From the NCBI RefSeq assembly GCF_004297185.1, contig NZ_PGCL01000001.1, positions 558,001 to 622,000 of the forward strand: DNA of 64,000 nt. Reading direction: 5' to 3'. The notes under the pieces were generated by a model that had not been told where the DNA came from, did no database searches, and saw nothing but the letters and a program-made list of their open reading frames with translations. Shown here piece by piece: positions 38,232 through 40,982 of this stretch (position 1 is the first letter of the stretch; each line of letters begins with the position of its first letter). The position numbers and the translations under genes were made by a program. Origin of the DNA: Methanofollis fontis. GTDB taxonomy: Archaea > Halobacteriota > Methanomicrobia > Methanomicrobiales > Methanofollaceae.

Positions 38232-38456
38232 CTATTTCCGTTCTTTGAGTTCCTCTCGTTCTATCCCTGCCTGTCGGAGGATTTCAAGAAGAGTGCCTGT
38301 GGGCAGATCCTTTGCATGAACCGGGACGGTCACGCGCCTCCCTGTTTCCGGGTGACGGTAGAGGTGGTGGCTGCCCCGTGTCCGTACCAGGACGAATCCT
38401 TTTGTTTCAAGAATTTTGATGACTTTTTGCGGGGAGAGGACGGGAATTTTAGGCAT
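38232..38456 (-). CDS. hicA: HicA-type mRNA interferase toxin
   Basis: A 74-residue HicA/YcfA protein with a dsRNA-binding-like fold. The catalytic His is in RTRGSHHLYRHP, followed by the conserved RRVTVPVHAKDLPTGTLLEI. It overlaps the end of hicB by 8 bases and follows it, so the antitoxin is made first. The pair is complete and apparently intact, unlike the HEPN/MNT remnants beside it. Typical action is ribosome-independent mRNA cleavage when HicB is lost. Confidence 0.93.
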   Translation of the reverse strand: MPKIPVLSPQKVIKILETKGFVLVRTRGSHHLYRHPETGRRVTVPVHAKDLPTGTLLEILRQAGIEREELKERK

Positions 38457-38682
38457 ATGCTTCGACCGTCAGGGTATATTCGAGGGTGTCCTCCTCGGTC
38501 GGGATCTCCTCGCCTCTTTCGGTCAGGTCTTCCAGGTACACCTCGATCGCCTCCTTCGCCATTGCGATCGCCTCCTCGATCGTGCCGCCGAAGGTGACGC
38601 AGCCGGGAAGCGTCGGTACCGTGACGGTGTAGCCTCCCTCCGGCTCTTTTCGCAGAAGAATGCGATAGGTGATGCGGTGCAT
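38449..38682 (-). CDS. hicB: HicB-type antitoxin
   Basis: A 77-residue HicB-like protein made of the partial RNase H fold domain: YRILLRKEPEGGYTVTVPTL, PGCVTFGGTIEEAIAMAKEA and IEVYLEDLTERGEEIP. It has no added DNA-binding domain at the C-terminus (ends LEYTLTVEAYA), so autoregulation would need another factor or the HicAB complex. A ribosome site AAGGAGA and a minus-strand TATA-like CCATAAAACC (about 38721-38730) precede it. Confidence 0.92.
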   Translation of the reverse strand: MHRITYRILLRKEPEGGYTVTVPTLPGCVTFGGTIEEAIAMAKEAIEVYLEDLTERGEEIPTEEDTLEYTLTVEAYA

Positions 38683-39380
38683 GTCCCTTTTCTCCTTTTG
38701 GTTCGATCTTTTGTGGGGGTTTTATGGGTGAAATAGGTTTTGTGGTGGATGGATATCGTTGCAATAGAGGACCGGGTCGGGCTCAGACATCGGCCCTCTC
38801 GCCTGCGATCCTCTCCCGCATCGCTGGTCTGACGGCGTCGGGGGACGTCGGGTCGTTTGGGGGGGGTGGTCTTCCCGCTTCCGCGAAGGCGAAATGTGCC
38901 GACCGGGCGGGAGCACTCGAGCCGGGATGTCGGTGCCGCCTGCGGGGGTGGTTATGGCAGGGTGTGGGCTGACTCCCGGCCCCTCCGGCGTTTACACTGT
39001 TTTCAGCAGGTTTTCGGCAAAATTTCAGCGTCTGCCGCGAAGATGAACGGGCGAGGAATGGCCCCTGTACCGACAGTACGGTACAGATAGAGAGACGCGT
39101 CTCTCTATCTGTACTATATTTCAGCAGATCACACGCACAGCCTCAGGTGTCTGTGCAGGAGTGGGTGGGTGCGGGTGTGTGTGCGACCTCCGGAATGTTG
39201 TAGACGATCCGGTGATCTGGGTGTGCGGGGGCTGTAATTTGAATCAGGGTGATTTGTGGCGTTTTTATGGTGGTGGTGCCTGCTGAAAGGTGCTGAAAAA
39301 GGGCAAAAATGGTGGGTCTGTGCTGTAAGGGTTCCTGGGGGGGATCGTGGTGCAGGTTTTTTGAAACTGTTATTCTCTCA
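38683..39380. other. Gene-free stretch between hicBA and sepS
   Basis: About 700 bases with no gene that can be supported. Open frames here (for example 38724-38972) are low in recognisable content. It holds the hicBA promoter, a nested set of inverted repeats at 39065-39114, a weaker repeat GCACAG ... CTGTGC (39135-39156), a G/T-rich stretch (39160-39240), and A/T-richer sequence after the sepS stop that could carry its terminator. Confidence 0.6.
39065..39114. repeat. Nested inverted repeats, including a 34-bp perfect palindrome
   Basis: 39081-39114 is a perfect palindrome with 17-base arms (GTACAGATAGAGAGACG and its complement) and no spacer. 39065-39072 (CTGTACCG) and 39079-39086 (CGGTACAG) form a second perfect 8-bp repeat with a 6-base loop. 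The six bases GTACAG at 39081-39086 belong to both, so the two hairpins exclude each other. No neighbouring gene start is close. Confidence 0.9.
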
Positions 39381-40982
39381 TTACTCCCCGATCTCCCCTC
39401 GCACCGTCAGAAACACCGGGCCCCGCACATCCACCTTCCTCTTATTATCGGTAATATACCGCATCGTCCAGTCCGGGATCCGCAGGTTCACATCCGACGG
39501 CGTCTTCGCCATCTTCACCTGCACGCTCGCCGCCTCCCCGCAGCGGGCCGCCTCCTCGATGCGGGCCGCCGCCAGGTTCGCTGCCGCCATCAGGTAGGAG
39601 ATGCCGGTGGGTGCGCCGTTCGCCCGGACGTCGGCGAACTTCTCGGTGTCCGGGACGCCGAGCACGCGGCCGTCCTGCACAAAGACCTCGTTGAAGGTGG
39701 CCGGCCCGCAGAGCCGCGAGTTCTCCTCGGGCTCCTCCACAAACACACGGAGGCGCCGCCCGCCGACCTCGCCCTCGAAGGCCAGGAATGAGCAGGGCCC
39801 TTCGGCTGCGGCGTTCGCCGTCGCCGTCGCCATGATCGCCTCCACCAGGGCCCGCCCCTCCGGGCTCTGCGCCTCCTCCCTGAGGGTGATCGCCGCGGCG
39901 ATCTCCCGGTCGGTGAGGGTGCGGGGGAAGAACTGGGGATGGGTGAGTTTTCTGACGTCGTCGGCCTGGTAGAGGATCATCGCCAGCCGCTCCACGCCGA
40001 GGCCCAGGTTCATCACCGGCACCCCGATGCCGTACTCCCCGAGGGCCGAGGGGGAGTACATGCCGAAGGTGGCCACCTCCACCCATCCGATCTCCGGGTG
40101 GCGGGCGTAGACCTCGGTCTGGGTGTCCGGGATATAGTATTTGGAGCGCTTCTCGTCAGGGCGGAACTCGAAGTCCTCAAAACCGAAGGCCGAGAGCAGG
40201 GCCTCGGAAACCGCCTTGCCGTCCTCGATCGTGATCTCCTCACCGGCCAGCACGCAGGAGGCCGAGTGGTAGGTCATCAGGCGGGTCGGCCCCTCCTCCT
40301 GCTCACGGCGGAAACAGCGGTCGATCGAGAAGAGACAGATCGGGCGGGGGTAATGCTCCCACATCGCCCCCAGGGAGAGGAACCAGCCGCTCGTCATATG
40401 GGAGCGCAGCGTCGTCCTGGACGACTCCGGGGCGAGGTCCCGGAACTCCGGGAAGATCGAATCCAGGATATGCACCACCAGGGCATCGTCGATGCCGAGG
40501 TCGGCGGCGATCTCATGGCTCAGTTCGTCGCCGTCGATCGTCGCCTTCTTATAGGCGTGGAAGGTCTGCTGGAGTTTCTCCTTCACCTCCTCGGGGGGAA
40601 CGGCGTAGGAGTCGTTCTCGGCCCTGATGATCCCCATGATCTCCTCGGCCTGACGGTCCGAGATCCCCACGTTCGGCCGCGGCAGACCGCCGAGATAGAA
40701 GACGCGGTCCAGCACGGCGCTCGCCTCCGGGCCGAACTGGCGATAGACGTCCGCCTCCTCGATCATCAGCGGCACGCGGGCCTCGTCGAAGCCCATCGAG
40801 AGGTAGACCTCGCGGAGGCGCTGGATCGTCTCGGCGATCGGGTGCGGCGCCGCCCGCCGGAAGCCCTTCCTCGGATAGGTTGCGGCCAGCGACGGGCGGG
40901 AGAGCACCTCCGGCCCCCGGTGCCAGGCGCCCTCGAAATCGGTTCTTGACAGTTCCTTCCAGAATTCAGGATCAAATCTCAT
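39381..40982 (-). CDS. sepS: O-phosphoserine--tRNA(Cys) ligase (SepRS)
   Basis: A 533-residue class II synthetase charging tRNA-Cys with phosphoserine, which SepCysS then converts to Cys-tRNA. Diagnostic motifs are [13 protein letters not shown] and [12 protein letters not shown], whose His/Thr and Ser residues bind the phosphate, the motif 2 region [14 protein letters not shown], and [15 protein letters not shown] (Asn and motif 3). N-terminal [12 protein letters not shown] and PRKGFRR also match methanogen SepRS. It is not PheS, which lacks HMTSGWF. It starts 3 bases after the taw1 stop, as the last gene of the prf1-argS-taw1-sepS operon. SepCysS is not in the window. Confidence 0.95.

Follow-up and report, generated by a model that had tools for sequence, protein, structure and literature searches.

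The question raised by this locus is what a long perfect palindrome is doing between two genes of Methanofollis fontis. The stretch of DNA that was analysed (the window, 64,000 nucleotides) contains the palindrome, 34 bp in length, at 39081-39114. Its arms, 39081-39097 and 39098-39114, are complementary at 17/17 positions with a spacer of 0 (GTACAGATAGAGAGACG followed by CGTCTCTCTATCTGTAC). Base composition predicts about 1.2e-5 palindromes of 34 bp in the window, and the runner-up perfect palindrome has arms of only 8 bp. Thus, the statement of the first-pass annotation that 17-base arms without a spacer are beyond chance was correct. The second hairpin that it described was also found: CTGTACCG (39065-39072) pairs with CGGTACAG (39079-39086) across a 6-nt loop, and hairpin and palindrome overlap by exactly six bases (39081-39086). 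The site is intergenic, between sepS (39381-40982, minus strand) and hicB (38449-38682, minus strand). It lies 266 bp beyond the sepS stop, as previously given. From the hicB start it is about 400 bp upstream, a gap that had been put at about 380 bp.

A structured RNA had been considered as one explanation. The RNA folding z-score of the palindrome region was -5.1. Rfam gave nothing at gathering score and a tRNA search found no tRNA in the whole window; further, no intrinsic terminator (a GC-rich stem followed by a T run) was present in 38900-39400, and a promoter and terminator scan was empty. The explanation by a structured RNA is not supported, in view of the missing Rfam match and of the copies located inside genes, which are translated as a protein linker as described below.

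The 17-mer arm, with up to one mismatch allowed, has further copies in this genome and was detected in 10 of the 11 other genomes of the genus, and it was absent from the 29 other genomes of the order tested. The first-pass annotation had suggested a search for such copies and had reserved the possibility of an isolated chance feature; the recurrence of the 17-mer in genome and genus does not agree with that possibility. When 29 loci were aligned, conservation extended over about 350 bp with a common layout, which reads from left to right TTnCAGCA iterons 11 bp apart, GTAC repeats, the palindrome, an iteron, a CAC/GTG-rich inverted repeat and inverted iterons. About 49 such elements (type A) reached at least 60 bits with a model of the core sequence, in 11 of the 12 Methanofollis genomes. 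About 14 of these lie in frame within an intact gene, rep, and about 33 stand alone (solo), where the split is our reading of Rep matches, homology ends and model hits combined.

From computational evidence, we propose that the palindrome is probably the centre of a solo copy of a replication origin from an undescribed family of integrated replicons of the Methanomicrobiales. In intact elements, the sequence lies in frame within the gene rep and is very probably their origin of replication, with Rep as the predicted initiator that would recognise it. Our literature searches found no description of the element. Of the earlier suggestion of a mobile-element end, the link to a mobile element is right in outline but the end is wrong: the palindrome is the middle of the element. 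A recombination or attachment site, also listed there, is conceivable but gained no positive evidence; in intact elements the palindrome is located within rep and at no evident end of the element.

The solo element of the window, about 380 bp long, spans 38975-39354 (limits approximate; plus strand, in the orientation of the rep gene). With the dyad as zero, local alignment to the in-rep copies extends from -121 to +258, and the core scores 102 bits with the sequence model. The left iteron array (38990-39030, plus strand) is phased at 11 bp, the TTnCAGCA consensus being conserved in the family alignment; it comprises a degenerate GTTTACACT at 38990, TTTTCAGCA at 39000-39008, TTTTCGGCA at 39011-39019 and ATTTCAGCG at 39022-39030. 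Judging from the family alignment, the second hairpin (CTGTACCG, 6 nt, CGGTACAG; 39065-39086, plus strand) is derived from the GTAC repeats that flank the palindromes of the family. The palindrome itself (39081-39114, without strand) forms the centre of the element within its region of lowest GC content, and is among the few fully perfect ones in the family. Immediately to its right is the iteron ATTTCAGCA (39118-39126, plus strand), whose CAGCA is invariant in the family alignment. It is followed by the CAC/GTG-rich imperfect inverted repeat (39130-39185, plus strand), which is also kept in the family, and by a single degenerate inverted iteron AATGTTGTA (39194-39202, minus strand; family consensus AATGTTGnAA). 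The right inverted iterons (39280-39328, minus strand; identified with the family alignment) are CTGCTGAAA at 39280, GTGCTGAAA at 39290 and GTGCTGTAA at 39320. The iterons at 39000 and 39118 and the inverted iterons at 39280 and 39290 are perfect.

The about 14 intact rep copies carry the origin-like element inside the putative initiator gene; the window copy is solo, stop codons interrupt its rep frame and it encodes no protein. Three intact type-A rep genes (C2, C3 and C4) are present in the same genome, and their products are candidate partners that could bind it. As the window copy lacks a protein but is probably bindable by these resident Reps, it is at most a Rep-binding site that acts by titration, or a slowly decaying remnant.

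The in-rep element is conserved as DNA and not as protein. In 12 type-A rep genes, the differences per codon position were 0.301/0.307/0.293 inside the element, that is without codon periodicity, and about 0.12-0.18/0.09-0.19/0.31-0.34 in the remainder of rep. Further, synonymous differences in these genes fell from 0.41 to 0.18-0.20 over the left iterons and the palindrome. The arms of the palindrome covary: among 44 distinct cores, the centre varies (CGCG, GATC, AAGCTT, AATT and others) while the arms remain complementary. Mismatches to the element's own arm averaged 2.8 of 13 in type A vs. 5.3 between elements, and 3.2 vs. 7.1 in type B, and 0 of 5000 shuffles matched this complementarity. 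At the palindrome, the GC content is down to 0.40-0.47 from about 0.70; there is no long AT tract, and the palindromic centre is weaker in this respect than a classical AT-rich unwinding region.

The rep open reading frame, with the element in frame, encodes 920 residues or more. Rep matches were found in all 12 Methanofollis genomes and in 128 of 199 genomes, representing 31 of 38 genera, of the Methanomicrobiales; no Pfam or NCBIfam family matched Rep at cut-off. An alignment of 30 relatives contained the invariant motifs D-x-D-P-x-R-P and S-G-N-G-A-H and a Walker A motif; in our interpretation, they denote a primase-polymerase domain together with an AAA+ helicase. The predicted architecture of Rep is a primase-like domain, an AAA+ helicase, a winged helix, a disordered linker encoded by the origin and a C-terminal zinc ribbon. 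Note that the winged-helix and primase assignments come from motifs and from an AlphaFold model of modest quality (mean pLDDT 73, pTM 0.42). In this model the N-terminal part, the helicase and the winged helix are ordered, and residues 736-863, the part encoded by the element, have very low confidence and are predicted to form a disordered linker. Foldseek with Rep matched MCM helicases in the PDB, and among phages and archaeal viruses it matched replication proteins; a sequence-profile search of solved structures found no relatives. Tyrosine integrase genes were located 0.5-4.4 kb from rep at three of the ten loci inspected, two of them confirmed by Pfam. A plasmid collection contained no extrachromosomal form of the rep replicon, and matches in plasmid and phage collections were to the N-terminal third of Rep only. 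The rep at one locus (L083; G008:C5 about 516.8-519.2k), of the TTTCGAC/TTTCACC iteron class, lacks the zinc ribbon and ends instead in an unrelated low-complexity C-terminus.

The iterons fall into classes: type A has CAGCA, type B has TTTGCACC and type C has TTTTCACC. Further classes are TTTCGAC/TTTCACC and one located near sepS in relatives, in which the element straddles the rep stop. In the primase and helicase, the similarity between type A and type B Reps (0.79-0.83) was comparable to that within the types (0.78-0.85). In the wing, by contrast, similarity was 0.85 within type A, 0.83 within type B and 0.65 between A and B, and the fixed wing motifs xSRG and NNGG separate the type A and B Reps. 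Across the order, CAGC-core iterons accompanied 35 of 36 Reps with an SRG wing and 0 of 23 others, counts that are not to be read as a probability since lineages are related and some genomes, present in both genome collections, were counted twice. The Rep of L082 has the backbone of another Rep class, yet possesses an SRG wing and CAGCA iterons. Thus, the iteron class matches the wing motif of Rep. Of all the arguments that Rep binds the element encoded within it, and hence that the element is an origin, this match is the strongest. The protein-binding site listed by the first-pass annotation was therefore a sound guess in outline, in that the origin-like element matches the DNA-binding wing of the replication protein of integrated replicons.

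In the mechanism that we envisage, the winged helix of Rep would bind the phased iterons, the lower-GC palindromic centre would be opened or extruded, and Rep itself would supply both helicase and primase. The reading as an origin draws on the in-frame rep copies, the halved synonymous change, the disordered linker, the covariation of the arms and the GC minimum at the palindrome, and further on the match of wing and iterons, the helicase and primase fold relatives and the coincidence of solo ends with the element. The iterons are phased at 11 bp and their class follows the Rep wing in sequence comparison; their binding by Rep is predicted.

An origin inside its initiator gene has a precedent in phage lambda, in which the iterons of ori lie within gene O (PMC7466680). 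In both cases, the iterons occupy the middle of the gene and encode a linker that joins the DNA-binding part to the remainder of the initiator (PMC7466680). Unlike O, Rep is a predicted primase-helicase with a C-terminal zinc ribbon; the methanogen iterons are phased at 11 bp, a long palindrome occupies the centre with inverted iterons beyond it, and many solo copies reside in the chromosome. The alpha protein of phage P4 combines primase, helicase and a C-terminal winged helix in one protein and recognises short iterons such as GGTGAACAG. The predicted domain set of Rep is similar, and some methanogen iterons (GGTGAAAA) resemble those of P4. To our knowledge, ori and crr of P4 are not embedded in frame in the alpha gene; the origin layout differs, and a match of sequence families is absent. 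Membership of Rep in the P4-alpha family was rejected, as no Pfam or NCBIfam family matched at cut-off and the fold matches were distant.

A palindrome that appeared to be an orphan is thereby tied to a family of replicons which is undescribed and which is present in 128 of the 199 sampled Methanomicrobiales genomes. Its predicted origin is translated within its own initiator, and the iteron type can be read from the wing of that initiator. The family offers candidate replicons for methanogen genetics and a protein-DNA recognition code to test. Further, it is a natural setting in which a decoy role of chromosomal origin copies against mobile elements can be addressed.

A single genome (G005) has up to about ten solos, and solos are also present in Methanoculleus. 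In most type-A solos, the homology to rep starts 106-140 bp to the left of the dyad, and in most it ends 205-330 bp to its right (full range -82 to -177 and +203 to about +450, respectively). The copies are dispersed and their ends loosely inverted, as in a MITE-like transposable repeat or an attachment site bounded by TTGCAGCA-type inverted repeats. However, the ends vary by tens of bp, and the "terminal" repeats are iterons that change together with the DNA-binding wing of Rep, so that we regard this explanation as highly improbable. A MITE or insertion sequence was rejected on the variable ends and on the alignments of orthologous solos, in which no target duplication was seen.

Solos, including the window copy, may instead have been left by deletion of integrated elements and now be functionless, a plausible explanation to which we give somewhat less than an even chance. 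The stop codons in the rep frame of the window copy, the rep 3' end remnants retained by several solos, and the finding that several relatives have a rep of a different class in the corresponding interval near sepS are consistent with this. On the other hand, among 60 Rep fragments, 43 have their centre within the element vs. about 8 expected, where the 60 include a few double hits of one element. Moreover, several solos are orthologous between species and thus persist, and their iterons and palindrome diverged by 0.078 vs. 0.136 in the element spacers (p about 1e-4; flanks 0.24, partly misalignment). This motif conservation argues against simple decay.

The lower divergence of iterons and palindrome than of spacers would also be expected if chromosomal solos titrate Rep, whether incoming or resident, and thereby restrict or exclude the mobile element, which we consider possible but rather unlikely. 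Solos outnumber in-gene copies about 2:1, and some are tandem arrays that mix iteron classes. Lambda origin copies provided in trans on multicopy plasmids inhibit the cognate replicon (PMC4488673, PMC3349717), ectopic origins blocking lambda by competition for O (PMC4488673). Those decoys were engineered multicopy plasmids, whereas the methanogen copies are natural and chromosomal, with a hypothetical decoy effect, and one or few chromosomal copies may titrate little. In the phage-encoded resistance Per of lactococci, plasmid-borne phage origin DNA is a false target for the replication machinery. Per is comparable to solos acting as decoys in that origin DNA is the false target, and it differs in that phage origin DNA is carried on plasmids, with different hosts and initiators. 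Against titration by solos, resident Reps of the same class share genomes with them, and gene conversion among copies could yield the motif conservation.

Solos could also be integrated small circles containing only the origin, which Rep would have amplified in trans before their capture by the chromosome, comparable to defective-interfering genomes; we likewise consider this possible but rather unlikely. Their ends cluster just beyond the origin yet vary by tens of bp, as expected if function, and not a recombinase, sets the ends, and tandem units of types A and B have the same junction at two loci. However, no ori-only circle was seen, and the rep 3' remnants in several solos are as expected of deletion in place. 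Functionless remnants, decoys and captured circles do not exclude one another, and our confidences in them overlap. A combination is conceivable, though we would not expect it to be the case: methanogen chromosomes may keep by selection dispersed and tandem solo origins of multiple specificities as Rep sponges, possibly seeded by ori-only satellite circles. If true, such sponges would constitute an origin-decoy immunity or incompatibility system.

The interval next to sepS lacks the window element in relatives, in which the sepS side carries different toxin-antitoxin-like genes. No clean empty site for the insertion in the window was demonstrable, as relatives do not align over about 38949-39380. 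In four related species (L145, L147, L148 and L149), a rep of another class lies between a lipoprotein gene and sepS, and its origin-like element straddles the rep stop codon. The interval, which also carries hicAB and other toxin-antitoxin genes, has the appearance of a hotspot. To the left of the element, the non-coding segment 38753-38949 of the window aligns at 73-79% to several places near sepS in relatives and is apparently the remnant of a toxin-antitoxin-type gene; these alignments end at 38949, adjoining the element.

Two further arrangements of solo or split elements were observed. In one genome, unlinked tandem solos of types A and B (L105, G009:C1 about 278k; L106, G009:C1 about 1407k) have nearly the same A/B junction despite diverged sequences. 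In a Methanoculleus-like genome, the two parts of a type-A element lie about 1.45 kb apart (G067:C1:1575183-1575276 and 1576730-1576787). The parts overlap by 8 model positions, as would be expected if an insertion sequence had entered at the left palindrome arm and duplicated 8 bp of target.
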